64,000 nucleotides of DNA from Acidobacteriota bacterium (GTDB lineage: Bacteria > Acidobacteriota > Vicinamibacteria > Vicinamibacterales > SCN-69-37): NCBI GenBank assembly GCA_020853395.1, contig JADYYY010000016.1, positions 186,001 through 250,000 of the forward strand, read 5' to 3'. Position 1 is the first letter of the stretch. Each line of letters begins with the position of its first letter. A program made the position numbers and the translations under genes. Positions 9,089 to 44,024 of this stretch are shown piece by piece. Under the pieces are notes generated by a model. The model saw nothing but the letters and a program-made list of their open reading frames with translations, was not told the DNA's origin and ran no database searches.

Positions 9089-9090
9089 GA

Positions 9091-11709: not shown

Positions 11710-11802
11710 GAACGACTCCTCATGGCGTGCGACGGCCCGGAACCCGCTACAATTGCAGCGCCGGACGGACCATGCGTCACACGCGTGGATCAAAAACGGT
11801 CT

Positions 11803-11852
11803 CGCCAGACTGGCGTTCGGCAGCCCGTCGGGTGTCATCGCACCCGACGGGC
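11803..11852 (-). promoter_or_regulatory. Structured leader upstream of siderophore receptor
   Basis: On the receptor strand a perfect 12 bp stem (arms 11823-11834 and 11841-11852, 6 nt loop) is followed by a 5 bp hairpin (CGCCA/TGGCG, 11803-11815) and then a short run of Ts (GACCGTTTTTGATCC). This could be a 5' leader with an attenuator-like element. It matches no riboswitch class I can name; there is no B12-box-like consensus. Confidence 0.4.
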
Positions 11853-11864
11853 CTCTCTGTTCGT

Positions 11865-11884
11865 AACTGAGAAACGTCTCAGTT
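11865..11884. promoter_or_regulatory. Palindromic operator candidate (Fur-like) for piu operon
   Basis: AACTGAGA-N4-TCTCAGTT is a perfect 8+8 inverted repeat about 155 bp before the receptor start. Arms of this kind flank many iron-regulated promoters (TGAGAAT-N-ATTCTCA type Fur boxes), but the centre is 4 rather than 5 bp, so another metal- or redox-responsive dimer is also possible. Position in front of an iron-uptake operon supports a regulatory role. Confidence 0.45.
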
Positions 11885-12028
11885 GCCGTCGGGGAGTCTA
11901 ACTCCGACCAAATTGGTCCGTCAACTCGGGCCACCCCTGCTGTCACGTCTGCGTGCTCGAATCGGTCGAGCTCGGCCGCGTACTTCGGTGAGCCGCGGCC
12001 GGGCGCCGCGTCACCTTCTTCCCCGTAC

Positions 12029-12052
12029 GCCGCAAGCCGTGAGCCGCAAGCC
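12029..12052. repeat. Dispersed intergenic micro-repeat, copy 1
   Basis: Two copies of GCCGCAAGCC separated by GTGA. The reverse complement shares CTTGCGGCTCACG with the repeat at 56287-56318, so this is a dispersed word-repeat located only between genes. Confidence 0.4.
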
Positions 12053-12083
12053 AAAGCGCGCGGGAGGCGTCGGACTCCGCTCG

Positions 12084-12089
12084 TATACT
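12084..12089 (+). promoter_or_regulatory. Candidate -10 box of leaderless rhaD
   Basis: TATACT lies 8 nt before the rhaD ATG, in the same GCTCGTATA context as the box before rhaB. No Shine-Dalgarno precedes the ATG. Confidence 0.45.
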
Positions 12090-12097
12090 TGCGGGCG

Positions 12098-14356
12098 ATG
12101 GAGAACACGGCGAAGCACGGATCCGCGGGCCAGGCGGTGGGGACGGCCCGGTGGCCGTTGAAGGCGCTGACCGATCTCTGGGACGACGGCGAGGCGGCGC
12201 GGCTGGCCGCGACGCCGCTCGAGCTCCTGCGCTATCGATCGAACCTGCTCGGCGCGGACCTGCGGATCACGAACTTCGGCGGCGGCAACACCAGCTCGAA
12301 GTACACCGCGGTGGATCCGCTGACCGGCGAGCCGGTGCGCGTCATGGCCGTCAAGGGGAGCGGCGGCGATCTGCGATCGATCACCTCGGCCGGCTTCGCC
12401 GTGCTGTACCTCGACGCGCTCGAGCGGCTGATCGGCCGCTATCGGGGCGAGGCGCACGAGGACGAGATGGTCGCGTGCTACCCGCTCTGCACCTGCGGCG
12501 AGCGCGGCGCTGCGCCGTCCATCGACACGCCGCTCCACGCGTTCCTGCCGTTCGATCACGTCGATCACCTGCACCCGGACTGGGCGATCGCGCTCGCGGC
12601 CAGCGCCAACGGGCTCGCACGGCTCGACGAGTTCAACGCGCACTACGGGCGCCGCATCGCCTGGCTGCCGTGGCAGCGTCCGGGCTTCGAGCTGGGGCTC
12701 ATGCTGCGGCGCGCGGTCGAGGCCCATCCCGGCTGCGACGGCATCCTCCTCGGCGGCCACGGCCTGTTCACGTGGGGCGCGACGCCGCGCGAGTGCTACC
12801 GATCGAGCCTCGAGACCATCGACCAGATGGGCGACTTCATCGCCGCGCACGACACGAGGCGGCGCGTGCCGCGGTTCGGCGGCGCACGATACGCGACGTC
12901 ATCGCTCGATCGCGACGCGGCGGCCGGCGCGATCCTTCCGGTGCTTCGCGGTGTCGTCTCGACGGGACGCCGGACGATCGGTCACTGGGACTCGTCGGAC
13001 GACGCGCTGACGTTCGCCGGCTCGGTGTGGGCCGACGAACTGTGCCGCCTCGGGACGAGCTGCCCCGATCACTTCCTGCGGACGCGGATCTGCCCGATGT
13101 ACGTGCCGTGGGACCCGTCCTCCGGCCTCGCCGCGCTGGAGGCGCTCGTTCGCGAGCGGGTCGTGCAGTACCGCACCGACTACACGGCGTACTACGAATC
13201 GTTCGCGGCGCCGGACAGCCCGGCACTCCGCGATCGCAACCCGTCGGTCGTCGTCGTTCCCGGGCTGGGCGTGTTCGGCTTCGCCAGGGACAGGCGCGAA
13301 GCGCGCATCACCACCGAGTTCTTTCTGAACGCGATCCGGGTGATGGCTGGGGCGAACGCGCTCGAGGGTGACGCGGTGGACGGCCCGGTGCCGCAAGCAC
13401 GCCGGCCCGATCGAGCCGAGGGCTTCGCCCACGCGCACAATTACGTGGCGCTGCCGCGACGCGAGGCGTTCCGGATCGAGTACTGGGCGCTCGAGGAAGC
13501 CAAGCTCCAGCGCATGCCGCCGGAGAAGGAGCTCAGCCGGCGGATTGCGCTCGTCGTCGGCGCGTCGAGCGGCATCGGACGGGAAGTGGCCGTCGAGCTC
13601 GCGCGGCGCGGCGCGCACGTCGTGCTCGCCGATCTCGACGAGGCCGGCGCCGCGGCGGCGGCACGGGATGCGGCGGCCGTCTCGTCCGGCGAACACGTGA
13701 TGGCGGCCGCAGCCGATCTCTCGTCGCGCGCGAGCCTGCGCGCGACGATCGACCGCGCCCTCCGGCACTTCGGCGGGATCGACGTCGTGATCAACACGGC
13801 CGCGATCTACCCGACGCCGCCGCCGGGCACGCCGATCGAGCAGGTGTGGGCGCAGGCGCTGGCGCTCAACGTCACGAGCAACCACGTGCTGGCCGACGAG
13901 GCGGCGCGCGTGTTCCGCGCGCAGCAGCTCCCCGCGTCGATCGTCCTCACCAGCTCGGCGAACGCCGTCGTGCCGAAGTCGGGCAGCGAGCCCTACGACG
14001 TCAGCAAGGCGGCGGTGAACCACCTGATCCACGAGCTGGCGATCGGCCTCGGCCCGCTCGTGCGCGTCAACGGCATCGCGCCGGCGACGGTCGTCGCCGG
14101 CTCCGCGATGTTCCCGCGCGATCGGGTGATCGTCTCGTTGGAGAAGTACAAGATCCCGTTCGACGCGACGGAGCCGACGGAGAGCCTTCGAGCGAAGCTC
14201 GCGCAGTTCTATGCCGGCCGCACGATCACGCGCCAGCCGATCACCCCGGCCGACTGCGCGCGCGCGATCGTCTGGCTCGCCGGCGACCAGAGTGCCCGGA
14301 CGACCGGGCACGTCATCCCGGTGGACGGGGGGCTCGCCGAGGCGTTCCTGAGATGA
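12098..14356 (+). CDS. rhaD: Bifunctional rhamnulose-1-phosphate aldolase/lactaldehyde dehydrogenase
   Basis: A 752-residue fusion. The N-terminal class II aldolase domain (about 20-430) splits L-rhamnulose 1-phosphate to dihydroxyacetone phosphate and L-lactaldehyde; it has NFGGGNTSSK, MAVKGSGGDL, the zinc-ligand pair HVDHLHPD, and GGHGLFTWG. The C-terminal short-chain dehydrogenase (about 480-750) oxidises or reduces lactaldehyde; it has VVGASSGIGREVA, the ADLDEAG cofactor strand end, NTAAIYP in place of NNAG, and an S/YxxxK site (SSANAV...YDVSKAA). Start 12098 is the first ATG after the TATACT box. It is separated from rhaI by gdhA on the other strand, but a decayed rhaI start follows the stop directly. 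Confidence 0.92.
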   Translation: MENTAKHGSAGQAVGTARWPLKALTDLWDDGEAARLAATPLELLRYRSNLLGADLRITNFGGGNTSSKYTAVDPLTGEPVRVMAVKGSGGDLRSITSAGFAVLYLDALERLIGRYRGEAHEDEMVACYPLCTCGERGAAPSIDTPLHAFLPFDHVDHLHPDWAIALAASANGLARLDEFNAHYGRRIAWLPWQRPGFELGLMLRRAVEAHPGCDGILLGGHGLFTWGATPRECYRSSLETIDQMGDFIAAHDTRRRVPRFGGARYATSSLDRDAAAGAILPVLRGVVSTGRRTIGHWDSSDDALTFAGSVWADELCRLGTSCPDHFLRTRICPMYVPWDPSSGLAALEALVRERVVQYRTDYTAYYESFAAPDSPALRDRNPSVVVVPGLGVFGFARDRREARITTEFFLNAIRVMAGANALEGDAVDGPVPQARRPDRAEGFAHAHNYVALPRREAFRIEYWALEEAKLQRMPPEKELSRRIALVVGASSGIGREVAVELARRGAHVVLADLDEAGAAAAARDAAAVSSGEHVMAAAADLSSRASLRATIDRALRHFGGIDVVINTAAIYPTPPPGTPIEQVWAQALALNVTSNHVLADEAARVFRAQQLPASIVLTSSANAVVPKSGSEPYDVSKAAVNHLIHELAIGLGPLVRVNGIAPATVVAGSAMFPRDRVIVSLEKYKIPFDATEPTESLRAKLAQFYAGRTITRQPITPADCARAIVWLAGDQSARTTGHVIPVDGGLAEAFLR

Positions 14357-14365
14357 GCCGACCGG

Positions 14366-14457
14366 CCGACGTCCCCTGACCTCTCGAGCCGAACGACGCG
14401 ACGTCCGAACAGCAGATTGCCGCGGCGCTGGACCGTTTCCGCATCGAGCTCTCGTCC
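14366..14457 (+). pseudogene. Relic of the 5' end of rhaI
   Basis: About 90 bp just after rhaD match 16154-16246, the last 35 bp before rhaI plus its first 55 bp or so, with only a few differences. The start codon has become ACG (ATG in the intact copy), one base is missing before it, and identity ends after the codons for FRIEL. It is too short to be expressed. The intact copy is on the far side of gdhA, so gdhA with its flanks lies between two direct repeats. Confidence 0.8.
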
Positions 14458-14513
14458 ACCGCTTCGAACGCGACTCGAGCGCCCGCCTCCGGCGGCCGTA
14501 CTCGCCTGCCGGC

Positions 14514-17403
<2,890 letters not shown>

Positions 17404-31298: not shown

Positions 31299-32108
31299 AT
31301 GTTCCGTATCGTGATGCTGCTGCTCCTGTGCTCGGTCGCGCTCGGGGCGCAGGGGGCGCGGCCGCCGGTCTCCACGTCGAAGCCGGCCCCGGCCGCGAAA
31401 CCCGTTCCGGCTCCCAAGCCCGCGAGCCCTCGCACACCCGCCGCGCCGGTGCCGGCCCAGCCTCCGCCGCCATCGTCGAGTGCTCCGGCCTCGCAGGCGA
31501 TGGCCCCGCTTTCCGATGAGCAGAAGACGATCTACGCGCTCGGCCTCCTCATGCAGCGGTCGATCCGCCAGTTCGACCTCTCGCCGGAGGAGATCGAGAT
31601 CATCAAGCGCGCGCTCGTCGACGGCGCGGCCGGCACGCCGGCGATCGACCTCAACGAGTGGGGGCCGACGATCGAGCCGTTCGCGACGGTGCGCGGAGAG
31701 CGTGCGATGACGAGGGAAAAGGCGGTGGCAGCCGCCTACCTCGAGCGAGCGGCATCCGAGCTCGGGGCGGTGAAGACCGCGTCGGGCCTCGTCTATCGCG
31801 ACATCACCGCCGGCACCGGGGCATCGCCGAGCGCGCGCGACACCGTCAAGGTCCACTATCGCGGGACGCTCGTCAACGGCACCGTGTTCGACAGCTCCTA
31901 CGATCGCGGCGAGCCGGCCACGTTTCCGCTGACCGGCGTCGTGCCGTGCTGGACCGAAGGCGTGCAGCGGATGAAGGTCGGCGGCAAGGCACGGCTGGTG
32001 TGCCCGTCCGATCTCGCGTACGGCGATGCCGGAGCGCCAACGATACCCGCGGGCGCGGCGCTCGTGTTCGACATCGAACTGCTGGAGATCGTCAGGACGG
32101 TTCCCTAG
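31299..32108 (+). CDS. Exported FKBP-type peptidyl-prolyl isomerase
   Basis: A 269-residue periplasmic prolyl isomerase. It has a signal peptide (MFRIVMLLLLCSVALGAQG), a Pro/Ala-rich linker (about 22-70), an FKBP_N helical dimerisation domain (about 75-150), and an FKBP catalytic domain starting DTVKVHYRGTLVNG with FDSSYDRG, WTEGVQRMKVGGKA, LAYGDAG and ALVFDIELLEI. AGGAG lies 6 nt before ATG 31299. Its stop overlaps the convergent kinase gene by 4 nt. Confidence 0.9.
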   Translation: MFRIVMLLLLCSVALGAQGARPPVSTSKPAPAAKPVPAPKPASPRTPAAPVPAQPPPPSSSAPASQAMAPLSDEQKTIYALGLLMQRSIRQFDLSPEEIEIIKRALVDGAAGTPAIDLNEWGPTIEPFATVRGERAMTREKAVAAAYLERAASELGAVKTASGLVYRDITAGTGASPSARDTVKVHYRGTLVNGTVFDSSYDRGEPATFPLTGVVPCWTEGVQRMKVGGKARLVCPSDLAYGDAGAPTIPAGAALVFDIELLEIVRTVP

Positions 32109-32983
32109 CGCGATCTCGGATTCCGTCGCCCGTCGTACCCGTCGTACCCGCGAGCTATCCGTCTCAACCCGTCCGCGACGCGCCGAAGGCTGCCGCGGCC
32201 GGTCGCCAGCCGAAAGACGCCGACCGTCGCGAGCGCCGTCGCAATCCAGAACGTCCGGTTGTCGAGATATGCCCGCACCGGCCCTCCGGCGGCGGCGTAA
32301 CCGGCGAGCAGCTCGCGCTCGAGCGTGGGCGTCAGCGGCCAGCTCGTGACGGCCCTCGCGAGGTCGAACGCCGGCGGACGAAGCGACAGCCGTTCCTCGT
32401 CGATCAGCCGCAGTCGTCCGGCCCGCGTGCGCACGATGTTGCCGGGGGACGGATCGCCATGGCTGATCGCCGTTCGCGTGTCGGTCGGCAGCGCGAGGCG
32501 CATGAGCGCGCGAGCCTCCGCCTCGCTGAGCAATGCCCGCGCGCGGAACGCTCTCGCCACGCGGGTCACGAGCCATCGCGTGTTCACGTAGGTCGTCGGG
32601 GCGACGGGCGGCGCGGGCGCTCGATGGAGCCGCGCGAGAAGGCGGCCAACGCCGCGGACGAGCCGGGCCGTTCCGGTGGCGGACGCACCGGTGCGCAGCC
32701 GGTCGAGCGGTGTCCCCTCGACGTACTCCACGACGAGGCAGCGCCCGAGCCGCAGGATTGGTCGAGGCAGCGTCGTGCCCGCGACCTGCAGCATTCGCCA
32801 GACGTCGTCGGCTCGCGCCGCCGTCGGGTAGAGGCGCATCTTCACGCGTCGGCCGTCCACCAGATCGAGCCCTGACACCGGCGACTCGGCGCGGCTCGAC
32901 AGGCGCGCCTCGCGAGCCACGTGCAGGCCGTGAGCGGCCAGCAGTCTCGCGCGCCGGGCTGTCAGCACGGCCGCTCCAGGCAC
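32105..32983 (-). CDS. APH/lipopolysaccharide-kinase-like phosphotransferase
   Basis: A 292-residue protein of the aminoglycoside-phosphotransferase fold. The catalytic segment SHGDPSPGNIV (His175-Gly-Asp177, Asn182) and LIDEERL (Asp195 as metal ligand) are present, as is a hinge-like CLVVEYVEGTPLDRL. The N-lobe lysine is probably in RVKMRLYP. It overlaps the HPr-kinase-like gene upstream by 22 nt. The last residues (RGYDGYDGRRNPRS) are encoded by the GTCGTACCC repeat found in bulk at 56.7-57.6 kb. A sugar, lipid or peptide hydroxyl is the likely acceptor; the true substrate is unknown. Confidence 0.75.
   Translation of the reverse strand: MPGAAVLTARRARLLAAHGLHVAREARLSSRAESPVSGLDLVDGRRVKMRLYPTAARADDVWRMLQVAGTTLPRPILRLGRCLVVEYVEGTPLDRLRTGASATGTARLVRGVGRLLARLHRAPAPPVAPTTYVNTRWLVTRVARAFRARALLSEAEARALMRLALPTDTRTAISHGDPSPGNIVRTRAGRLRLIDEERLSLRPPAFDLARAVTSWPLTPTLERELLAGYAAAGGPVRAYLDNRTFWIATALATVGVFRLATGRGSLRRVADGLRRIARGYDGYDGRRNPRSR
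32124..32154. repeat. GTCGTACCC repeat inside a gene 3' end
   Basis: Two tandem GTCGTACCC units preceded by CGTCGCCC, the same words as the arrays at 56741-57645, here coding for the C-terminus of the APH-like kinase. Confidence 0.6.
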
Positions 32984-34047
32984 GCCGCGATCAACGTCGC
33001 CAGCGAGGCATTGGCCCTCACGTCAGGCACGCCGATCGCGTAGCAGGCGACCGCGGGCACCAGCGCGCGACAGCGGCGCATCATCTCGTTCGCCTCCGGC
33101 GGCGTGGCGCCGAGCGTGAAGACCTCCGAGCAGAATCGCCCGCTGGCGCGGCACAACAACGCTCCGTCGATCGCCGTGGCCGCCCGCTCGTCGTCGAGCC
33201 TGTCGACGAAAGCGCTTTCGCGATCCGCGTTCGGGAACACCACGGCGCCAACGGGGGCGCACGCCTCGGACGCGCACGGCAGCGCCGCGCAGAGCTGCGG
33301 CGGGCTGATGTGCCACGCGTCCTGCCATGTCCGCGGCGGTCGCGGTCCAGCCGCCAGCCTTGCCTCGCGATGCTGGAGCAGATCCCCGCAATGCGCCAGC
33401 CTCGCGGCGATGGACGGCAACAGCTCGCGCGACCCCGACCGGATCGCGACGACGGTCGGCACGGCCAGCGCAGCAGGCGGCGTACCGTGCCGCACGACCA
33501 CGCGATCGTTCGACAGGAAACCGACGCCTGTCTGCTCCAGCAGCCGCAGCATCGTCGTTGTCTTCCCCGAGTGCTTGGGGCCGGCGATCAGCACCGCACG
33601 ACCGCGGGTCACGATCGCCGCCGCGTGCAGCACGACCGCGCCGCGTGCGATCGAGTGGTTGTGGGCGTACTCGCGCACGACGCGCAGCACGTGGGCTCGT
33701 GCCTGGAGCCGATCGCCGTAGACACCCACTCTGGTCGAGCGGCCATCGTCTTCGACGGCGTAGACGATGCCGTCGGTGGCGTCGTGCACAGCCAGACCGC
33801 GGGACGTCCGCCGGACCGGCAGCTCGAGCGGGCTCGAGTCCTGTGCGAACGCCACGCACGTGTCCGAATCGCGATCGCCGGCCGTGGGGGGCGCAATCGG
33901 ATCGAGCCCGACGCGCACGTCGACGGCTTGCATTGGAACGTCCGCGACAGCGAAGGCTGGCGTCAGGAACTCCTCGAGCCACGTGTGCTCGTCGGCATCT
34001 GCCTCGATGCCGATCGTGAGCCCGTTGTGCGCGTAGGCCCGAATCAT
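32962..34047 (-). CDS. HPr-kinase-like P-loop protein
   Basis: A 361-residue protein with a Walker A loop GPKHSGKTTT (about 156-165) preceded by HAAAIVTRGRAVLIA, then SNDRVVV as a Walker B-like strand, the layout of HprK-related kinases. In other bacteria such proteins occur in lasso-peptide and exopolysaccharide clusters, where some phosphorylate a serine of a peptide. The N-terminal 130 residues resemble the variable domain of these proteins. The ATG overlaps the TGA of the transporter gene upstream (ATGA). With the adjacent NTP_transf_5 gene it forms a pair seen in such clusters. No precursor peptide was found here. Confidence 0.72.
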   Translation of the reverse strand: MIRAYAHNGLTIGIEADADEHTWLEEFLTPAFAVADVPMQAVDVRVGLDPIAPPTAGDRDSDTCVAFAQDSSPLELPVRRTSRGLAVHDATDGIVYAVEDDGRSTRVGVYGDRLQARAHVLRVVREYAHNHSIARGAVVLHAAAIVTRGRAVLIAGPKHSGKTTTMLRLLEQTGVGFLSNDRVVVRHGTPPAALAVPTVVAIRSGSRELLPSIAARLAHCGDLLQHREARLAAGPRPPRTWQDAWHISPPQLCAALPCASEACAPVGAVVFPNADRESAFVDRLDDERAATAIDGALLCRASGRFCSEVFTLGATPPEANEMMRRCRALVPAVACYAIGVPDVRANASLATLIAACLERPC

Positions 34048-35387
34048 GGCGGCGCGTCCCACGCCGCGATCGCGTGCGGGCGACGTCCGAGCGCTGTGGC
34101 CGCCCGCCAGAAATGGACCGCGCCCCACGCCAGGCAACCCGCCGTCACGACGATCGACGCCTGGAGCCCGTCAGTGGACGCGCGGGCGCAGGCATCCGCG
34201 ATCGCCGGCACGGCGCCGGCGCCAAAGCACGACGTCCGGTAGTCGCCGAGCATGAAGGCGCGGCTGGCGAAGGCGTCGCTGGCCACGCCCATCAGCGTCG
34301 GCCCGAGACCCTGGCCGAGCACGTTCATGGCGAGGAGCACGACGGCAGATGCCGACGCCCGCATGCGCGCGCTGACGATGTTCTGCGCCAGCGCGAACGT
34401 CGGTCCCATGTACGTCGTCAGGCTCACCGCGCCGGCGACCAGATAGCCGAGCGTCGCGGCCACCGTCTCCTGGCGAAACGCGACGACGTACAGCGGGAAC
34501 GCGAGCGCGACGCCAAACGCCGGGATGCCGGCGTACCATCGGACGTGTCTTCGTGCGGCGAGATCGGTCATGAAGCCGCCGGCCAGGATGCCCGCCACGC
34601 CCGATGCGCCTGCGACGACGCCGAACCAGAGACCCGCATCCGCCATACCGATGCCGAACCGACGCACGAGATAGGTCGGTCCGAACAGGTTGATGCCGGT
34701 CGCCGCCACGCTCGTGAGCGAGGCCCCCATCACCATGTGGCCGAAGACCGGATCGCGGAAAAGACCGCGCATCATGTTGCGGAACGGCGGCGGCGCGGCG
34801 GCCGCGCCGTGCCGATCCAGCGCTCCGCGGACGGGTTCACGGAGCGTGACGATCACGAGCAGCGCGAGGACGAGACCCGGCAGCCCGACCGCGGCCATGG
34901 CCGTCCGCCAGCCGTACATCTGGCTGAGCCATCCGCCGGCGACGCTGCCGGCCACCGCTCCGAGCGGCGCGCCCAACGTGAACAGCGCGAGCATCGAGGC
35001 GCGGCGGTGAGCGGGAAACGTGTCCGAGAGCAGCGAATGCGACGCGGGGACGACGCCCGCTTCGCCGATTCCGACGCCGAGGCGATAGATCAGCAGGCCG
35101 GCGTAGGACCGTGCCGTGCCGAACAGCGCGGTCATGAGCGACCACACCGCGATCGACGAACCGATGATGAGGACACGGCTGCGTCGCTCGGCGAGCCGCG
35201 CCACCGGAATACCGCAGGCCGAGAAGAGGAGGGCGAAGGCGAGGCCGCCCAGCAGGCCGAACTCGACGTCGCTCAGTCCGAACTCCCTGATGATGGCCGG
35301 GCCGATCACGGCGACGATGACGCGATCGACGAAGGCGAACGTGTAGGCGGTGATCAGCACCACCATCAGCCAGAGCCGGTACGCCAC
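34044..35387 (-). CDS. MFS transporter (spinster-like)
   Basis: A 447-residue twelve-helix major facilitator. The N-terminus has FVDRVIVAVIGPAIIREFGLSD, and the loop between helices 2 and 3 reads GIPVARLAERRSR; helix 4-5 carries GIGEAGVVPASHSLLSD, typical of the spinster-like subgroup. A GTG at 35387 right after the upstream stop gives the best N-terminus. It likely exports a small molecule or lipid. Position between the HPr-kinase-like and NTP_transf_5 genes suggests it moves the product of this island. Confidence 0.85.
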   Translation of the reverse strand: MAYRLWLMVVLITAYTFAFVDRVIVAVIGPAIIREFGLSDVEFGLLGGLAFALLFSACGIPVARLAERRSRVLIIGSSIAVWSLMTALFGTARSYAGLLIYRLGVGIGEAGVVPASHSLLSDTFPAHRRASMLALFTLGAPLGAVAGSVAGGWLSQMYGWRTAMAAVGLPGLVLALLVIVTLREPVRGALDRHGAAAAPPPFRNMMRGLFRDPVFGHMVMGASLTSVAATGINLFGPTYLVRRFGIGMADAGLWFGVVAGASGVAGILAGGFMTDLAARRHVRWYAGIPAFGVALAFPLYVVAFRQETVAATLGYLVAGAVSLTTYMGPTFALAQNIVSARMRASASAVVLLAMNVLGQGLGPTLMGVASDAFASRAFMLGDYRTSCFGAGAVPAIADACARASTDGLQASIVVTAGCLAWGAVHFWRAATALGRRPHAIAAWDAPP

Positions 35388-35389
35388 GA

Positions 35390-36505
35390 TCAGGCGCCCC
35401 CTGCCGAGTGCGGCGCTCTCGCGACGCGCATCTGCCAGGCGACGCGTCCACCGGAGATCAGCCGGCGGACGCTGACGTCGCGAACGTTGGCGGGGAAGCC
35501 GGCCCACCAAAACGCGGCGAGATAGCGCGCCAGCGAGCCCGGGTAGATCCGGGCGAACCAGCGGAGGTTGGCCGGCGTGCGCGGCGGCGCGAACACCAGC
35601 GTGAGCCGTTCATCGGCGGTCAGCGGCACGATCGCGGACCGCCATGCTGCCAACATCGACACGAGATGAGGCAGTTCGTCCCGGACCTCGAAGAGCTCGA
35701 TCACGAGCATCAGCACGTTCGCGAAGACACCGGCGAGCCGCGCGGCATCACGGCGCGCGAAGAATCGATCCCAGTCGACGCGGGCATCGACATCGCGCAG
35801 CAGCAGGTAGAGATCGACCAGTGCCCGAAGCTGCGTCGATCCATGCGCGAGCTCCTCGAAGATCGACAGCGCGATCAGGACGATGGTCCACTCGTCCGAG
35901 AGCGTACGGCAGCGCACGCCGTCGATCGTGAGGTCCACCGCCTCGTCCCAGATCGGTCGTTCCTCCAGATGGAACGCGGGCGCGCCGCGCAGGCAGCGAT
36001 GGACGTCCAGCTTGATCGTGGCGAGCGCGAAGGTCACCGCGTGGGCGTCGTAGCCGAGACGGACGCATCCGTGCGTCCTGAGCACCGCGCTGGCGCGGCG
36101 CCTGTCGTTCTGCCGCACCAGCAGATCGATGTCGTGCTGCGGCCGCCCCTCGAGGCTGCCGTACAGCCGGACCGCAAGGGGAAACCCTTTGAGCAGCAGC
36201 ACGTTCACGCCCGCTGCGGCCAGGTGCCGCTGTAGCTCGTCGAAGGTTCGAAGCAGCGCCGCGTTGGACGGCCATGGTTTCGCCCGCCACGACTCGAACC
36301 GTTCGGCGAGCGCCGGCGCGAGGGCGCGCGAGAGATCCTCGGCGCTCGTCGCGTTCAGGATCAGGCGGATGAGCCGGTGCGTGCCGAGGACGCGAATGAT
36401 CTCATCGGGATCCTCCGTCAGCCGCTGCAGCGCCTCGACGAGCGGGCCGGAGTGGCGCCGGCCGGCGTGCCTGGCCACCTGGACGTAGCGCTCGCGTTCG
36501 GACAT
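35390..36505 (-). CDS. Nucleotidyltransferase, NTP_transf_5 family
   Basis: A 371-residue protein. The core has LLLKGFPLAVRLYGSLEGRPQHDIDLLV (in the stretch 102-130), with Lys106 and the metal-binding pair Asp125/Asp127, the hallmark of NTP_transf_5 (PF14907). Members are common beside HPr-kinase-like proteins in lasso-peptide and exopolysaccharide loci, but their acceptor is not known. ATG 36505 lies only 19 bp from the divergent glycosyltransferase start, so promoters must overlap the neighbouring gene. First gene of a four-gene leftward operon. Confidence 0.8.
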   Translation of the reverse strand: MSERERYVQVARHAGRRHSGPLVEALQRLTEDPDEIIRVLGTHRLIRLILNATSAEDLSRALAPALAERFESWRAKPWPSNAALLRTFDELQRHLAAAGVNVLLLKGFPLAVRLYGSLEGRPQHDIDLLVRQNDRRRASAVLRTHGCVRLGYDAHAVTFALATIKLDVHRCLRGAPAFHLEERPIWDEAVDLTIDGVRCRTLSDEWTIVLIALSIFEELAHGSTQLRALVDLYLLLRDVDARVDWDRFFARRDAARLAGVFANVLMLVIELFEVRDELPHLVSMLAAWRSAIVPLTADERLTLVFAPPRTPANLRWFARIYPGSLARYLAAFWWAGFPANVRDVSVRRLISGGRVAWQMRVARAPHSAGGA

Positions 36506-36511
36506 GCGCGA

Positions 36512-36517
36512 TATAAG
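36512..36517 (+). promoter_or_regulatory. Candidate -10 box of leaderless glycosyltransferase
   Basis: TATAAG 7 nt before ATG 36525, in the 19 bp between divergent starts. Confidence 0.4.
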
Positions 36518-36524
36518 GTATGCG

Positions 36525-37745
36525 ATGGGTCGACCGGCCGCCGCGGTGTTCTGCATGCCCGACCGCGGCCACTTCCAGCAGCTCCGGCCGGTGATCGCCG
36601 GGCTCTCCCGGACGGGCTTCCGCCCTCACGTCTACACGCACGAGCGCTTCCGGCCAGACATCGAACGCCTCGGGGGCGTGTGCGTCGATCTGTTCTCGCG
36701 CTACGCGATCGAGCAGGCCGACGGCGAGTCGTGGCCGTTCGCCTGCCGGTACGTGACGTTTGCGGCGGCCTACGGCGACGCCATCGCGCAGGAGGTTCGC
36801 GCCATCGCGCCGACCGTCGTCGTCCACGACACGTTCGCGGTGATCGGCCGCGTCGTCGCCCACGTGTTGCGGCTCCCGCGCGTGAACGTCTGCGCGGGAC
36901 ACAACGTCGACCCGGACCGGTACATCCCCATCATGGCGGCGCACCCTCGAGTCCACGTGTCGCCGCAGTGCAAGGCGGCCGTGGCGCGCCTACGCGATGA
37001 CTACGGCGTCGCGGACGCTTCGCCGTTCTCGTACGTATCGAACCTCAGCCCGGATCTCAATCTCTACGGCGAGCCGCCGGAGTTCTTGCCCGAGGCCGGG
37101 CGCGCGTGCTTCGAGCCGGTGGCGTTCTTCGGATCGATTCTCGAGGAGGACGCGGCCCGTGACGTGCCGGCTCGCCCGTACTTCGATGGCCGCCCTCGTG
37201 TCGGGCTGAAGGTGTACGTGTCGTTCGGATCCTTCATCGTGCCGTTTCGTCTTCAGGAAGCGACCGCGGCGTTCGAGGCGATCGCCGCCGGCGTGTCGCG
37301 TCATCCCGGGATGCAGGCGGTCATCACGCTCGGCGGCGTGACGGTGCCCGCCGAGGTCGGCGCGTCGATCGCGCGACGCGGTGTGCGGATCGAGCCGAAC
37401 GTGGACCAGCGGCGCATCCTCCAGGAGGCCGACGTCTTCGTCACGCACCACGGCTTGAACTCGACGCACGAGAGCATCGTGCACCGGGTGCCGATGCTCT
37501 CGTATCCGTTCATCTGGGATCAGCCTGCGCTGGCGGCGACGTGCCAGCGGCTCGGCCTCGCAATTTCGCTCACCACCTCGCCGATGGCGCCGCTCTCGGA
37601 GGAGGATGTCGATCGAGCCTTCGCGACGTTTGCGGCCGGGCGCGATCGATTGACGGCGAACCTGGCGCGAGCGCGCGATTGGGAAATGGCCGTGATCGCC
37701 TCGAGGCCGGTCGTGCTTCGACGCATCAGGGAGCTGTGCGCGTAG
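36525..37745 (+). CDS. UGT-type glycosyltransferase (MGT-like)
   Basis: A 406-residue GT-B fold enzyme of family 1 type. The acceptor domain begins AAVFCMPDRGHFQQLRPVIAGL; the donor domain has VYVSFGSF, RIEPNVDQRRILQEADVFVTHHG and the nucleotide-sugar motif HHGLNSTHES...PFIWDQPALA with conserved Asp-Gln. Family members glycosylate macrolides, terpenoids or other lipophilic small molecules. ATG 36525 follows a TATAAG box; an ATG at 36504 is also open but overlaps the divergent gene. First gene of the rightward half of the island. Confidence 0.87.
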   Translation: MGRPAAAVFCMPDRGHFQQLRPVIAGLSRTGFRPHVYTHERFRPDIERLGGVCVDLFSRYAIEQADGESWPFACRYVTFAAAYGDAIAQEVRAIAPTVVVHDTFAVIGRVVAHVLRLPRVNVCAGHNVDPDRYIPIMAAHPRVHVSPQCKAAVARLRDDYGVADASPFSYVSNLSPDLNLYGEPPEFLPEAGRACFEPVAFFGSILEEDAARDVPARPYFDGRPRVGLKVYVSFGSFIVPFRLQEATAAFEAIAAGVSRHPGMQAVITLGGVTVPAEVGASIARRGVRIEPNVDQRRILQEADVFVTHHGLNSTHESIVHRVPMLSYPFIWDQPALAATCQRLGLAISLTTSPMAPLSEEDVDRAFATFAAGRDRLTANLARARDWEMAVIASRPVVLRRIRELCA

Positions 37746-37800
37746 GCCGGTACGCGCGTGCCGCGGGCGCCCGATCGCGATCCGGCACGAGGATCGTGAT

Positions 37801-37806
37801 TAGATT
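37801..37806 (+). promoter_or_regulatory. Candidate -10 box of leaderless SET-domain gene
   Basis: TAGATT 6 nt before GTG 37813; no Shine-Dalgarno. Confidence 0.35.
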
Positions 37807-37812
37807 CTCCTC

Positions 37813-38220
37813 GTGACGACACTTCCACGCCTGCAACGGCGCCCCTCGGCGATCTCCGGATGGGGCGTGTATGCCGCCGAAAACATCGCCGCCGGCACCC
37901 GCATCGTCGAGTACAAAGGCGAGCTGATCTCGCAGGCCGAGGCGTGGCGGCGCGAGCAGCGCTATCTGCCTCGCCATCGGATCTGGATCTTCATCATCAA
38001 CGATCGCTGGTCTCGGGATGCGGCTGTCGGCGGCAACATCGCGCGGTACATCAACCACTCGTGCCGGCCGAACTGCCATGTGGACATCATCGGGCGCTCG
38101 GTCTGGATCTTCGCGTCGCGCCGCCTCCGCAAAGGCGAAGAGCTGACCTACGACTACAACACCGACGGGGTCGCCGAGATCGAATGCCGATGCCGGAAAG
38201 GGTGCCGGCGGATCCTCTGA
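37813..38220 (+). CDS. Minimal SET-domain lysine methyltransferase
   Basis: A 135-residue protein that is almost only a SET domain. SAM-site GWGVYAAENIAAG (16-28), knot motif YINHSCRPNC (79-88), catalytic TYDYN (112-116) and a post-SET cysteine group (Cys125, 127, 131) after it. The cysteine spacing CxCxxxC is one residue shorter than the eukaryotic CxCxxxxC. The fold methylates protein lysines; bacterial targets are mostly unknown. GTG 37813 starts it. It lies alone between a glycosyltransferase and a membrane protein, and no histone-like partner is nearby. Confidence 0.87.
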   Translation: MTTLPRLQRRPSAISGWGVYAAENIAAGTRIVEYKGELISQAEAWRREQRYLPRHRIWIFIINDRWSRDAAVGGNIARYINHSCRPNCHVDIIGRSVWIFASRRLRKGEELTYDYNTDGVAEIECRCRKGCRRIL

Positions 38221-38483
38221 GGACGGATCGCACGCGCATCGCCGCCCTGAGCAGAATCTAGTGCAGTTCGCGCGGCCGCGTGGTTTCGTCACCGCACCGA
38301 TACTCTGCCAGCGTGGTGCGCTCGGACATGGACGCCTCCCGACGACGCTCTCATCGTTGAACGGGCGAGTCGAGCGTCGTCCGGCGCATGTTCTCGTGCT
38401 GCGCGTTCCCGAAGGTCCGGACGAAAATTCGCCGGCCGACACCGCGTTCGGCTGGCATAAGCTAGCCGCTACCGGAGCGCCCC

Positions 38484-38885
38484 ATGGGCTCATCACAGGA
38501 CGCGGCGTCGTTCGCGCTGGTGGCGGGATGGATCGGCATGCTCGCCGGCGTCGTCTCGGGTGCGGGCATCGGCCTCTTCTTCCACGACGAACGCTGGCTG
38601 GGCGGGTACGGCACGTTCAGGCGGCGGCTGCTCCGGCTGGGCCACATCTCGTTCTTCGGGCTCGGATTCCTCAACATCCTCTTCGGCCTGACGGTCACGA
38701 CCGCGGGTCTCGGCGGATCGACCGTGCCGGTCGCGTCCGTCGCGCTCGTCATCGGCGCCATCACGATGCCGGCGTGCTGTTTCCTCTCGGCATGGCGAGA
38801 GCCGTTTCGGCAGTTGTTTCCGATTCCCGTGATTGCGGTCGGGAGCGGCATCGTCTGCACGCTCCTCGCGTGGAGCCGGCCATGA
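38484..38885 (+). CDS. Small four-helix membrane protein
   Basis: A 133-residue protein with four predicted membrane helices (about 10-30, 48-68, 78-98, 108-128) and a polar loop FFHDERWLGGYGTFRRR. I do not recognise a family. Its stop overlaps the radical SAM start (ATGA), so they are coupled and it may work with that enzyme. The 263 bp before it show no gene. Confidence 0.7.
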   Translation: MGSSQDAASFALVAGWIGMLAGVVSGAGIGLFFHDERWLGGYGTFRRRLLRLGHISFFGLGFLNILFGLTVTTAGLGGSTVPVASVALVIGAITMPACCFLSAWREPFRQLFPIPVIAVGSGIVCTLLAWSRP

Positions 38886-40225
38886 GGATCGGGTTGATCG
38901 CCATGAGCGGCGTGCGGGCGTACAACCCCGAGCTGACGGCGCTGGGGCTGACGCTGCCGGGCTTCGTCGAGCGGAACAGGACGATCGCGTCGCTGCCGAG
39001 TCTCGGTCTGCTCACGCTCGCCGGCCTCACGCCACCGTCCGTCGCCGTCGAGTACCGCGACGTGCCGGAGCCGGACGCGCTCGACGCGCTGCCCGGCCCG
39101 TTCGACGTCGTGGCGATCTCGAGCTTCACGGCGCAGATGCCGGAAGCCTACCGGCTCGCCGATCGCTACCGGGCGGCCGGCACGCACGTCGTGCTCGGCG
39201 GCCTGCACGTGACGGCCGTGCCCGACGACGCGCGCGCGCACGCCGACACGATCGTGCTGGGCGAGGGTGAGCTCGCCTGGCCGCGCGTCGTCGCGGATCT
39301 CGCTCGGAAGACCGCGGCGCCGGTGTACGACGCGCGCGCGGCGAGCTTCGACTTGGCGCACGCCCCCATGCCGCGGTTCGATCTTCTCGACGTTCGCCGC
39401 TACAACCGGCTCACGGTCCAGACGCAGCGCGGGTGCCCGTTCCGCTGCGAGTTCTGCGCCGCGTCGATCCGGATCTCGCCGCGCTACAAGGTCAAACCGG
39501 TCGACAGGGTGATGCGTGAGATCCGCGAGATCCGGTCGATCTGGCCGTCGCCGTTCATCGAGTTCGCCGACGACAACACCTTCGTCAACAAGACCCACGC
39601 GAAGGCGCTCATGCGGGCGCTGGCCCGCGAAGGCGTGCGGTGGTTCACCGAAACCGACATCTCGGTGGCCGACGATGAGGAGCTGCTCGGGCTGATGCGC
39701 GACAGCGGCTGCGCGCAGGTGCTCATCGGCCTGGAGAGCCCGACGGCGGCCGGGCTCGACGGGCTGGAGCAACGATCGAACTGGAAGGCGCGGCAGCTCG
39801 CGCGCTACGGGCGGGCGATCGAGCGGATCCAGGATCACGGCATCACGGTGAACGGGTGCTTCATCCTCGGCCTGGACGGCGCCGGCGCGGACAGCTTCGA
39901 ATCGATCTGGACGTTCGTCCGCGACAGCGGCTTGTACGAGGTGCAGATCACCGTGCAGACGGCGTTTCCCGGCACGCCGCTCTACGAGCGCCTTCGCCGC
40001 GAAGGACGGCTGATCCGCGAGGGCGCGTGGGAGCTGTGCACGCTGTTCGACGTGAACTTCCGGCCAACCCACATGAGCGTCGCCGACCTGGAAACGGGTT
40101 TGCGGGATCTCGCTGCCCGTCTGTACAGCGACGAAGCGACGCGTGAACGGCGCCGCCGCTTCTTCCGGCGCCGCCGCGCCCTCCGGCCGGAGAAGGGCGC
40201 GCCCATCCGAAGCGAGGCCTCATGA
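38882..40225 (+). CDS. Radical SAM enzyme with cobalamin-binding-like N-domain
   Basis: A 447-residue radical SAM protein with the iron-sulfur motif CPFRCEFC (Cys185, 189, 192) followed by GLESPTAAGLDGL and TAFPGTPLYERL, close to the B12-binding class B (Mmp10/HpnJ-like) methylases and rearrangement enzymes. Residues 1-140 form a Rossmann-like domain (VVLGGLHVTAVPDDA...VLGEGE), but the cobalamin-ligand motif DxHxxG is not visible, so B12 may be bound base-off or not at all. The C-terminus is basic (RRRRFFRRRRA). Coupled by 4 nt overlaps to small membrane proteins on both sides. Substrate unknown. Confidence 0.85.
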   Translation: MRIGLIAMSGVRAYNPELTALGLTLPGFVERNRTIASLPSLGLLTLAGLTPPSVAVEYRDVPEPDALDALPGPFDVVAISSFTAQMPEAYRLADRYRAAGTHVVLGGLHVTAVPDDARAHADTIVLGEGELAWPRVVADLARKTAAPVYDARAASFDLAHAPMPRFDLLDVRRYNRLTVQTQRGCPFRCEFCAASIRISPRYKVKPVDRVMREIREIRSIWPSPFIEFADDNTFVNKTHAKALMRALAREGVRWFTETDISVADDEELLGLMRDSGCAQVLIGLESPTAAGLDGLEQRSNWKARQLARYGRAIERIQDHGITVNGCFILGLDGAGADSFESIWTFVRDSGLYEVQITVQTAFPGTPLYERLRREGRLIREGAWELCTLFDVNFRPTHMSVADLETGLRDLAARLYSDEATRERRRRFFRRRRALRPEKGAPIRSEAS

Positions 40226-40602
40226 CGCCGTCCTGGATTCGCCCCCTGTTTCTCGTCGCTGCGTTGTTCGACGGCGTGCTCGGCGTCGCCGTCCTGCTGT
40301 TCGCCAGGCCGATCTTCGCGCTGTTCGGCGTCGAGCCGCCGAATCACCTTGGCTACGTGCAGTTTCCGGCGATGCTCCTGATCGTCTTCGCGGCGATGTT
40401 CGTTCGCATCGCGAACGATCCGGTGTCGCGCCGCGATCTCATCCCGTACGGGATCGGCTTGAAGCTGGCGTACACGATCTCCGTCTTCTGGCACGAGCTC
40501 ACCGGCGGCGTGCCATGGATGTGGATCCCCTGGGCCTGGGCCGACGTCGTGTTCCTCGTGCTGTTCGTCATCGCGTGGCGGCAGACGAAGCCGGCGCGGT
40601 AG
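40222..40602 (+). CDS. Small membrane protein
   Basis: A 126-residue protein with four predicted helices (about 8-28, 46-62, 75-92, 98-118), containing FALFGVEPPNHLGYVQFPAM and FWHELTGGVPWMWIPWAWAD. Not recognised. It overlaps the radical SAM stop (ATGA), so with the protein at 38484 it brackets that enzyme, hinting at a membrane-associated reaction. Confidence 0.7.
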   Translation: MTPSWIRPLFLVAALFDGVLGVAVLLFARPIFALFGVEPPNHLGYVQFPAMLLIVFAAMFVRIANDPVSRRDLIPYGIGLKLAYTISVFWHELTGGVPWMWIPWAWADVVFLVLFVIAWRQTKPAR

Positions 40603-40724
40603 AGCGGGACGCCCCGATTATCTGAATCTCTCCGCTATGAGGCCGATCACAGAGCCGAAACGCCGTGCGCACCCGGCGGTCTGCTCGATCGCGTTCGTGT
40701 GAGAGCTCCGCAGCCTGGCGAAAC

Positions 40725-41474
40725 ATGCGGTCCCGTATAGACGAGCCGCGGTTTCTCTTCGTCCTCACCCAGCCGTATTCGGGGTCCACGGCACTGGCCC
40801 GCGTGCTGAGCACCGCGTCGGGCGCCGCGCTGCTGCACCCGAGCGGCGAAGGACAGTGGCTCGTGCCGGAGATGTCCGATGCCGCCCGCTGGGATCCGGC
40901 AAAGGTGATGGACTGGGCGGCGATTCGCGCGGCGTGGCTCGCCCGGATCGACGAGCTCTGCCAGACGACGCCCGTCACCGTGGTGATCGAGAAGAGCCCG
41001 CCGAACCTCGTTCGAATCGACCAACTGATGCGCGTGTTCCCGAACCACCTGCTGATGGCGCTCACCCGGCATCCGCTCGCACAGTGCGCCAGCGTGCTCG
41101 TGCGTCATCACGCTCCGGAGCAGAAGACCCCGGACGAGCGCGTCGAGATCGTCCGTCGTCTCGCGGACATCTGGCTCGAACGGGCACGGTGGATGCAGCA
41201 TTGGATCGGGCAGTTCGACGTGACGCGGTGTTCGTACGAGGCGTTCTGTGCGCGTCCTGCTGCGTGCATCGAGGCGCTCACGCCTGGCGCGCCGGAGTTC
41301 GCGACGGTCGACGTGCACGCGACCTTCGACGTCAAGGACTACCCGCGACAGGGGCTGCTGGATCAGAACCGTCGTCAGATCGAGATGCTGACGAGCCTGG
41401 AGCGTGACGCGATTGCGCAGCAGCTCGGGCGCGATGCCGCGCTCGTTTCGTTCTTCGGCTACGACGTCGGCTGA
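40725..41474 (+). CDS. Sulfotransferase-domain protein
   Basis: A 249-residue PAPS-dependent sulfotransferase-like protein. The 5'-phosphosulfate loop is QPYSGSTALARVL (residues about 13-25); the 3'-phosphate segment is ALTRHPLAQCASVL, with the conserved Arg. Sulfotransferases of this small type decorate sugars, peptides or lipids. ATG 40725 was chosen because the phosphosulfate loop then sits near the N-terminus as in the family. In a cluster with glycosyltransferases it likely sulfates a glycosylated product. Confidence 0.8.
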   Translation: MRSRIDEPRFLFVLTQPYSGSTALARVLSTASGAALLHPSGEGQWLVPEMSDAARWDPAKVMDWAAIRAAWLARIDELCQTTPVTVVIEKSPPNLVRIDQLMRVFPNHLLMALTRHPLAQCASVLVRHHAPEQKTPDERVEIVRRLADIWLERARWMQHWIGQFDVTRCSYEAFCARPAACIEALTPGAPEFATVDVHATFDVKDYPRQGLLDQNRRQIEMLTSLERDAIAQQLGRDAALVSFFGYDVG

Positions 41475-41813
41475 GTCCGACGCAGTTCTCGTCCGTCCTC
41501 GTCGCCTCGGAGGAACGATCGATCTCGCTGCTGCCGCGTCTCGGATACGATCGCTGCATCGCCGACGCTTGGCGGCGCGACAGCGCGACCTCCGCGCGGG
41601 CGCGTTCGGCTCGCCATCATCATCGCGCGCGGCGTGGGCTGCTGCGCCATCCGTTCGGAGGCGCCGGCGCTATACTCACGGCCCTGAGACCCGTGCACCG
41701 GTTTTCCATCACGCGCTGGACCCTGTGGGCGTAGGCCATCACGCTGTGAACCGCACGACGCGGCTGGCCGAGGCTGTGGTGGCGGCCGTCTCTCCGGTGC
41801 TCTGATCGTGACG
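41475..41813. other. Gene-free stretch before glycosyltransferase
   Basis: These 339 bp have no convincing reading frame. A TATACT at 41671-41676 is a possible -10, which would leave a leader of about 130 nt before the family-2 glycosyltransferase. No hairpin or repeat stands out. Confidence 0.45.
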
Positions 41814-42977
41814 ATGTCGGCCGAACTGGTGTCGTGGACGCTCCTCGCGGCCGTAGCCTACGCCTACGTTGGCTATCCGCTCCTGGTGTGGGCAGCGAGC
41901 CGCGTCATGCCTCCGCGCACGATGGCGCCCGTCGACCTTGCCGCCGCGCACGTTCCGTCGATCGCCATCGTGTTCGCGTCGCGCGACGAGCTGGCCACGG
42001 TGGCCAGCCGGCTGCGGAACCTCACGTCGCTCAACTACCCGCCAGCACGGCTCGAGCTGCTGGTCGGCCTCGATGGCGCTGCCAGCCCGGCCGGCGAGCT
42101 CGACGAGTGGCTGGCGGATCCACGCGTGACGATCGTCCGATCCGCGGACCGGGTGGGCAAGACCGCGTTGCTCAACAGGCTGATCGCCAGCTCGTCGGCC
42201 GACCTCGTCGTCTTCACGGACGCGAACGCCGAGTTCGATCGCGACGCGCTGCGGTATCTGGCCGCGCGGTTCGACGACCCCGGCGTCGGCTGCGTGACGG
42301 GCGAGCTCGTGTACTGCAACGACGCGGAGCCGGTCGTGCGCGCGGGAGAGGGGTTGTACTGGCGGCTCGAGAATGCGATCAAGAAGGCCGAGAGCCGTTT
42401 CGGCGGCACGCTCGTCGTCTCCGGTGCCATCTACGCGATCAGGCGTTCGCTCGTCGCGCCGCTGCCGCCAGACGTTTCCGACGACTCGACGAACCCGCTG
42501 CGCGCGCTCGCCGCCGGCCGCCGCGTCGAGGTCGAGCCGCGCGCGCGGGCGTACGAACGGGCCGCGACTCGTCTCGATGAGGAGTTCCAGCGGAAGGCGC
42601 GCATGGTGACGCGCCAGCTCGGCGCGCACGCGCAGGTCGGGTTCTTCCTCGTGCCATTCCGGCCGCTGCTCGCCCTTCGGCTCGCGAGCCACAAATGGCT
42701 GCGCTGGCTGGTGCCGTATTTCCTTCTTGCATCCGCCGCGATCAATCTCGCCGTCGGCGGCCCGCTGCAGCGCGCTATGCTGCTGACGCTGGCGGTCGGC
42801 GTGTCGGCGCTGTGCGCCGGCACGTTCCTGCAGAAACGGAGGGCGCGCGTCCCTTCGATCCTACGGTTGTGGACGTATTTCTGTACCGTGAACGCCGCGG
42901 CGTTCGTTGGCGTGTTCGACTTCATCCGGCGGCGCCAGCGCGTCGTGTGGGCCATCAGCCCGAGCACGCGGAGCTGA
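41814..42977 (+). CDS. Membrane glycosyltransferase, family 2
   Basis: A 387-residue GT-A enzyme. One N-terminal helix (LLAAVAYAYVGYPLLVWAA), catalytic domain with FASRDELATVASRL, the DxD-type FTDANAEFD, GALYAIRRS-like VVSGAIYAIRRS, and the QxxRW-like EEFQRKARMV, then three C-terminal helices. This is the layout of processive or undecaprenyl-linked sugar transferases in exopolysaccharide synthesis. Start is GTG 41808 or ATG 41814. Its 3' end overlaps the convergent ATP-grasp gene by 117 nt. Confidence 0.87.
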   Translation: MSAELVSWTLLAAVAYAYVGYPLLVWAASRVMPPRTMAPVDLAAAHVPSIAIVFASRDELATVASRLRNLTSLNYPPARLELLVGLDGAASPAGELDEWLADPRVTIVRSADRVGKTALLNRLIASSSADLVVFTDANAEFDRDALRYLAARFDDPGVGCVTGELVYCNDAEPVVRAGEGLYWRLENAIKKAESRFGGTLVVSGAIYAIRRSLVAPLPPDVSDDSTNPLRALAAGRRVEVEPRARAYERAATRLDEEFQRKARMVTRQLGAHAQVGFFLVPFRPLLALRLASHKWLRWLVPYFLLASAAINLAVGGPLQRAMLLTLAVGVSALCAGTFLQKRRARVPSILRLWTYFCTVNAAAFVGVFDFIRRRQRVVWAISPSTRS

Positions 42978-44024
42978 CGGCAGGTCGTGCGAGGGCGACG
43001 CCGAACCTGCCGCGCGGATGCCGGACCGATGGGCGTACATCTTCCACAGGCCCTGTGTCGCGCGCACGCTCCTGAAGGCCCATGACGGCAGCAGGCCGCG
43101 CCGCGGACGCAGCGCGATCGTCTCGCCTGCCTTCGCTCGCGGCCCATCCGCGTCGAGCGCGCGGAACGCATCGACCAGCCGATCGACGAGGATCTGCCGC
43201 TTCGGACGCCGGCTCGCGTGCGGCGCCTGCCGGCGTCCCATGACGGTCGGGTTGGTGTTGATCTCGTACACCTGCAACCGCCCGTCGGCGAACCCGTAAT
43301 CGATGCGGCCGTAGTCGATGCCGGCCAGCTCGAACAGGGGAGCCAGCCGCGCCGCGTGCGGGTTGTCGCGCACGTACTCGTACTCTTCCGTCGCGATGTC
43401 CGCAGTGACCACGCGGTAGTGGCCCTTGACCAGCCAGGAGCGGGCGACGATGAGATGGCTGGGAATGATGCGGCCGCGGACGAACAGGGCGCCGTACTTG
43501 CGGTAGAGCCCGTCGCCGTCTGGCGTGGCCACGCACTCGGTCACGATCAGTTGCTCACGCCAGGAGCGGCGGCGGCCGAGCCGGTCGATCGCCGACGCCA
43601 GATCCGACGGGTTGGAAATCAGCGGCGTTCTCGGCCCGCCGTGATCGTGTTCGCATCGCACGAAGACGGGGAACCGCACGCCGCCGAGGTCATCGGATGC
43701 GCGGAACACGCGGAAGTCGTTCACGCCGCGGTCGTGCAGGAGGCGGAGCAAATCGTACCGGAGCAGGACGCGGCGCGGGTCGTTCAGCACGCGCGCCGCG
43801 CCGGTCGCGGACAGCGCCGCGGCCAGATCGCGCACGGCGGCGGCATCGGCGCCGGGTACACGGTCGAGATCGGCGAAGAGGTACGTTCCCGGATCGACCT
43901 GCCGGCGCGTGAGGATGTACGGATACGTGACGATCCGGATCGTGTCATCGAGCGCGCCGCCGCAGTTGGCGGTGAGGTTGCGAATCGGCCGATCGAACTG
44001 GGGGGTGACGAGAACGTGAATCAC
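42861..44024 (-). CDS. ATP-grasp ligase-like protein
   Basis: A 387-residue protein of the ATP-grasp fold (RimK/D-Ala ligase type). Features are FPVFVRCEHDHGG as the ATP-lysine region, GIDYGRIDYGFADG and YEINTNPTVMG with acidic and Asn metal ligands. Such enzymes join a carboxylate to an amine or phosphorylate sugars. Residues after about 335 are low-complexity (SPSHDLPSAPRARADG) and overlap the convergent glycosyltransferase by 117 nt, so the C-terminus may be a read-through extension. It follows the methyltransferase by 15 nt and ends the Tct-linked operon. Confidence 0.75.
   Translation of the reverse strand: MIHVLVTPQFDRPIRNLTANCGGALDDTIRIVTYPYILTRRQVDPGTYLFADLDRVPGADAAAVRDLAAALSATGAARVLNDPRRVLLRYDLLRLLHDRGVNDFRVFRASDDLGGVRFPVFVRCEHDHGGPRTPLISNPSDLASAIDRLGRRRSWREQLIVTECVATPDGDGLYRKYGALFVRGRIIPSHLIVARSWLVKGHYRVVTADIATEEYEYVRDNPHAARLAPLFELAGIDYGRIDYGFADGRLQVYEINTNPTVMGRRQAPHASRRPKRQILVDRLVDAFRALDADGPRAKAGETIALRPRRGLLPSWAFRSVRATQGLWKMYAHRSGIRAAGSASPSHDLPSAPRARADGPHDALAPPDEVEHANERRGVHGTEIRPQP

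Follow-up and report, generated by a model that had tools for sequence, protein, structure and literature searches.

The stretch of DNA analysed here (the window; 64,000 nucleotides, contig C16:186001–250000) comes from a genome of 4.28 Mb that is 99.9% complete, and contains a region where kinase, transferase, radical SAM and sulfotransferase genes lie side by side. This raises the question of whether they form one tailoring pathway, as a preliminary description proposed for eleven of them, and on what such enzymes would act. Genes were predicted with a codon-usage gene caller and families were assigned by Pfam and NCBIfam scans; the relatives returned by the searches were Acidobacteria MAGs. 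GC content over the region is even (67.6–72.2% in 2-kb steps), with no hint of recently acquired DNA. The leftward series of kinase, P-loop kinase, MFS transporter and nucleotidyltransferase was recovered by the gene caller and the family scans, and the short divergent start region agrees with the gene calls (Table 1). Adjacent leftward genes share 7 or 4 bp or lie 2 bp from each other, a spacing as in an operon. The rightward genes follow in the order GT1, SET, orf133, B12-radical SAM, orf126, sulfotransferase and GT2, beyond which the ATP-grasp-like gene, a methyltransferase and a tripartite tricarboxylate transporter are again directed leftward.

Table 1. Features of the region (positions within the window)
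Feature	Position	Strand	Evidence	Assignment
APH-type kinase (choline/thiamine/aminoglycoside kinase fold; small-molecule kinase)	32105–32968	-	PF01636, 3e-18	cassette core
HprK/PEPCK-fold kinase	32962–34047	-	AlphaFold2 model; Walker A GxxxxGKT; invariant N-D-R	cassette core
MFS transporter	34044–35387	-	PF07690, 1e-40; ATGA overlap	non-conserved in cassette
NTP_transf_5 enzyme	35390–36505	-	PF14907, 4e-39; invariant K-G and D-x-D	cassette core
19-bp gap between divergent NTP_transf_5 and GT1 starts	36506–36524		gene calls	
GT1 glycosyltransferase, macrolide/YjiC type (HHGLNSTHE...DQP)	36525–37745	+	UDPGT, 2e-8	cassette core
SET-domain protein	37813–38220	+	PF00856, 4e-25	neighbour
orf133	38484–38885	+		part of separate radical-SAM module, 38484–40602
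B12-radical SAM with DUF4070	38882–40225	+		middle gene of the same module
orf126	40222–40602	+		last gene of the same module
Sulfotransferase (Sulfotransfer_3)	40725–41474	+	4e-14	neighbour
GT2 glycosyltransferase	41808–42977	+	2e-11	neighbour
Probable ATP-grasp protein	42861–44024	-	EINTNP motif reading only	neighbour

The segment 32105–37745 is a real compact cassette that recurs across phyla in distantly related bacteria. Scanning 84,980 species with a GT1 profile yielded 19 loci, six of which carry a compact block of HprK, APH, NTP_transf_5 and GT1 genes, so that seven such loci are known with the window. The six belong to Acidobacteria (L035, L042 and L045), Planctomycetales (L043), Binatia (L047) and the gammaproteobacterium Haliea (L052). 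APH and GT1 homologues adjoin HprK homologues in related genomes, and the catalytic motifs are largely intact across the seven loci. This type of HprK is itself rare, being present in 3 of 396 Acidobacteria genomes at E 1e-20 and, in a scan of 398 Pseudomonadota genomes with five candidates scored per genome, in Haliea alone. Since six of the 19 GT1 loci carry the full set and the HprK type is rare, chance adjacency is negligible; the occurrence of the four families together in seven loci bears out the earlier impression of a non-random tailoring set. Four of the loci (L042, L043, L045 and L047) additionally encode a 241-aa protein, absent from the window, which has no Pfam family and a poor structure model (pLDDT 50); its DDDDW motif suggests a transferase. 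Two further acidobacterial loci, L026 and L074, comprise the HprK and NTP_transf_5 pair alone.

The right half of the region behaves differently. Eleven genes are indeed present, as the preliminary description listed, but they do not make a single island: HprK, APH, NTP_transf_5 and GT1 recur in the other cassette loci without the SET, radical SAM, sulfotransferase, GT2 and ATP-grasp genes. No counterpart of SET, sulfotransferase or GT2 was found in any other cassette locus. Independent occurrence in related genomes, named beforehand as evidence against a common unit, was observed for part of the right half, namely the radical-SAM triad and the ATP-grasp gene, which have contexts of their own, and the whole-island reading is thus rejected. 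The triad of orf133, radical SAM and orf126 keeps its order in L068 and L069 at 53–69% identity (67–69% for the radical SAM protein alone), with no cassette nearby. In its own right this triad is a B12-radical SAM protein with DUF4070 flanked by two small, probably membrane, proteins, and it is shared with at least two related genomes. Relatives of the ATP-grasp-like protein, which has no Pfam or NCBIfam match and is labelled from a motif reading, stand alone in unrelated surroundings in the genome G048 at about 40% identity. The SET, radical SAM, sulfotransferase, GT2 and ATP-grasp genes are most likely neighbours that lie outside the cassette, judging by these gene contexts. The sulfotransferase family call holds (Sulfotransfer_3); the sulfated product envisaged in the preliminary description gains no support.

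The P-loop kinase has no Pfam match above cut-off, and its NCBIfam matches, HprK_rel_B (TIGR04355, 40.5 bits) and HprK_rel_A (TIGR04352, 20.6 bits), are both weak. Among curated families, TIGR04355 scores highest for most of the HprK proteins in the cassettes, at 23–54 bits, all far below the 200-bit cut-off. An AlphaFold2 model of the protein, built with seven homologues (pLDDT 83, pTM 0.86), aligns to PEPCK with Z of about 16 and to HPr kinase/phosphorylase with Z of 12.6–13.0 (1ko7, 13.0; 1jb1, 12.7). The weak family matches together with the model confirm the HprK-like identity originally read from the sequence, and both the fold and the Walker A motif of the HprK/PEPCK superfamily are present. 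All eight aligned members share, without exception, the P-loop, the preceding histidine (H141) and the second residue of the Asp-Asp pair that characterizes HprK/P. In 8/8, Asn replaces the first residue of that pair (N-D-R), the ADDR of the Lactobacillus casei enzyme lying opposite (S/A/T)NDR of the cassette proteins in a profile alignment to 1jb1. Such a replacement could alter the normal kinase activity or eliminate it.

The other core enzymes are assigned more readily. The APH-type kinase scores 67 bits against a cut-off of 23.2, and a profile search matches it to aminoglycoside 3'-phosphotransferases and choline kinase; the H-x-D...N motif and a downstream Asp are invariant in seven cassette members. 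The NTP_transf_5 call was upheld at 135 bits (gathering cut-off 31.2), with an invariant D-x-D (D125, D127), and a structure search by sequence found no solved structure for the family. The source genome encodes three more NTP_transf_5 copies above cut-off; in a tree of cassette copies sampled before the addition of L047, the cassette copies form one group separate from these three (support 96/98). GT1 matches the MGT family (TIGR01426) at 74.9 bits, below its 260-bit cut-off, and YjiC/OleD-type structures in a profile search; it is 45–50% identical to the GT1 proteins of the six other cassettes. The MFS transporter, co-transcribed by position, is a member of the cassette in the source genome only; the other cassette loci have nothing closer to it than a 25% match in L035.

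The core genes appear to have travelled largely together. Pairwise identities of HprK, APH and NTP_transf_5 agree with each other (r 0.85, 0.72 and 0.74; permutation p at most 0.003). GT1 distances agree poorly with those of the other three genes (r 0.17–0.32) and GT1 switches contexts, which suggests that it may be a looser partner of the cassette. The window is closest to L045, from a different family of the same class (HprK 37%, APH 41%, NTP_transf_5 47%), rather than to L035 of its own family (genome G003; 27%, 27% and 28%, respectively), and this argues for joint transfer. The NTP_transf_5 of L047 falls into a subgroup other than that of its HprK and APH. Transfer of the genes as a group, with some reassortment affecting the L047 NTP_transf_5 and GT1, seems the best account of the sequence distances; the HprK tree gave no decision on whether the cassette copies form one group.

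Among the GT1 loci, the gene is also found in other associations. In L036, L039, L044, L048 and L051, distributed over Acidobacteria, Planctomycetota, Syntrophobacteraceae and Armatimonadota, GT1 relatives are paired with a class I methyltransferase conserved at 61–64%, in some cases alongside a likely adenylate-forming enzyme that has no Pfam match. In L040 (3761–5890) and L028 (2915–5060), from Rheinheimera and an acidobacterium, GT1 relatives adjoin both a chorismate-binding enzyme and a 264–278 aa protein with ferritin-like E..H motifs.

A possible scheme for the cassette is offered by pseudomycoidin, in which the C-terminal Ser receives a phosphate from a kinase, and a nucleotidyltransferase then attaches one or two hexoses to it (PMC8498205). 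NTP_transf_5 activity is known from a single in vivo study of a distantly related protein. By analogy, the HprK-fold kinase would place a phosphate on a hydroxyl of the acceptor, and the NTP_transf_5 enzyme would attach a sugar (or a nucleotide) to that phosphate. GT1, in some loci together with the 241-aa protein, could add a further sugar, the APH-type kinase could phosphorylate the acceptor or the attached sugar, and the MFS transporter of the source genome could move the substrate or product. These enzymes probably act on a small molecule or a glycan that is produced elsewhere in the cell rather than on an RRE-dependent peptide. The other GT1 loci mostly have methyltransferases, a chorismate-binding enzyme or an O-methyltransferase beside GT1, and these neighbours point to small-molecule acceptors. 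We tentatively favour, as a reading that may well be right, a recurrent cassette that phosphorylates and glycosylates a non-RRE acceptor, the right-half genes being mere neighbours. That it represents a hitherto undescribed pathway of phosphoglycosylation that spreads horizontally, with HprK and NTP_transf_5 re-used alongside APH and GT1 to give a small-molecule or glycan product with no peptide precursor, is a more doubtful though still reasonable proposal.

An alternative that we consider rather unlikely is decoration of a surface glycan or glycolipid, the kinases and transferases putting phospho-sugars on an envelope polymer. It would fit L026, which adjoins PMT_2 and a likely GT2 gene, and a locus on contig C10 of the source genome, where an exosortase gene is accompanied by HprK-related kinase A, a PqqD-like gene and NTP_transf_5. 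Most cassette loci, read at the level of gene starts and lengths, nevertheless show no polymerase, flippase or other glycan gene that could be recognised, and small aglycones are the usual substrates of GT1 enzymes of this type.

The source genome contains three further loci in which these families meet. On C10 (L033, G000:C10:244000-263000, 10427–14799), the exosortase (EpsH) gene adjoins the HprK-related kinase A, PqqD-like and NTP_transf_5 genes; this kinase is bona fide at 330 bits, versus 20.6 for the cassette HprK and a TIGR04352 cut-off of 200. On C3 (L031, G000:C3:33000-52000, 9724–15031), a lasso-type cluster comprises PqqD, a Transglut_core3 peptidase, a further PqqD, Asn synthetase, a 58-aa putative precursor (...SPRLEQLGSLRDFVREGNAFGKSGPGADGM...) and an HprK-like kinase, with NTP_transf_5 about 5 kb upstream. 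The fourth HprK/PqqD/NTP_transf_5 locus, on C13 (L032, G000:C13:63000-82000, 7730–13081), has neither an exosortase nor a lasso gene that could be recognised in its vicinity.

Tailoring in trans of a peptide encoded elsewhere, such as the C3 lasso precursor, is improbable. HprK and NTP-transferase enzymes do tailor lasso and LPP peptides (PMC8498205; PMC13381572) and the source genome carries the C3 cluster, but that cluster has its own HprK and NTP_transf_5, and APH and a macrolide-type GT1 would be unusual RiPP tailoring enzymes. Contig C16 contains no PqqD, lasso peptidase (Transglut_core3) or Asn synthetase, and the absence of lasso synthetase, PqqD and exosortase genes from the locus agrees with the first description. 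The only Transglut_core3 match in the source genome is on C3, and PF05402 (PqqD), a profile that would miss more diverged RREs, matches only on C3 and C13. Neither family was found in two cassette carriers, G425 (Haliea) and G429 (Acidobacteria), each of which has a single NTP_transf_5, the cassette copy, nor in G039, which has only the HprK and NTP_transf_5 pair; Transglut_core3 was likewise not found in G427. A conserved precursor peptide was sought as a candidate and none emerged: no small ORF is common to nine cassette loci, a comparison that unrelated precursors could escape. The earlier suggestion of a precursor outside the window thus finds no support.

Detoxification or self-resistance, in which a phosphotransferase, nucleotidyltransferase, glycosyltransferase and MFS transporter would inactivate an antibiotic or xenobiotic and pump it out, is slightly more improbable still. 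The APH, MGT-type GT1 and nucleotidyltransferase families include antibiotic-inactivating members, the resemblance extending to aminoglycoside 3'-phosphotransferases for APH, to MGT for GT1 and, weakly, to FomB for HprK, and the MFS gene lies within the same operon. The scores, however, are far under the resistance-family cut-offs, the MFS gene is unconserved, GT1 and NTP_transf_5 gave no match on plasmids at the thresholds used, and the joint conservation of four enzymes is easier to reconcile with a pathway than with several enzymes inactivating the same drug in parallel. Anti-phage defence was rejected, there being no meaningful PADLOC match.

The phosphorylation and glycosylation of a non-RRE acceptor, the reading preferred here, bears on a family whose biochemistry is almost unknown: a compact four-gene unit, seemingly outside peptide pathways, offers a route to the acceptor and reaction of NTP_transf_5, and its occurrence in a named strain, Haliea sp. 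E1-2-M8, provides a direct way to both. In open-access full text, no paper names NTP_transf_5 by its Pfam name or accession, nor "HprK-related kinase", and "HprK-like kinase" occurs only in PMC13381572; descriptions elsewhere are possible.

Among known systems, HprK-related kinase B (TIGR04355) is the closest curated family, yet the window HprK remains far below its cut-off. The exosortase-associated set, as on C10, shares the kinase superfamily and the NTP_transf_5 family with the cassette, but has PqqD and exosortase, neither of which lies near the cassette. Lasso tailoring of the paeninodin/pseudomycoidin type (K and N) likewise combines an HprK-fold kinase and an NTP-transferase; the cassette differs in lacking lasso B/C proteins, a recognisable precursor and an RRE, in its additional APH and GT1, and in the Asn of the Asp-Asp pair. 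The LPP RiPP family, which comprises an HprK-like kinase, NTP transferase, discrete RRE, SpI peptidase and MsbA-like transporter (PMC13381572), resembles the cassette in combining the first two enzymes without a lasso cyclase, whereas no PqqD-type RRE, precursor or ABC exporter was seen with the cassette and its carriers are not Bacillota. The HprK and NTP-transferase pair is thus already known from pseudomycoidin and the LPP peptides, and the context of APH and GT1 is the added variation.
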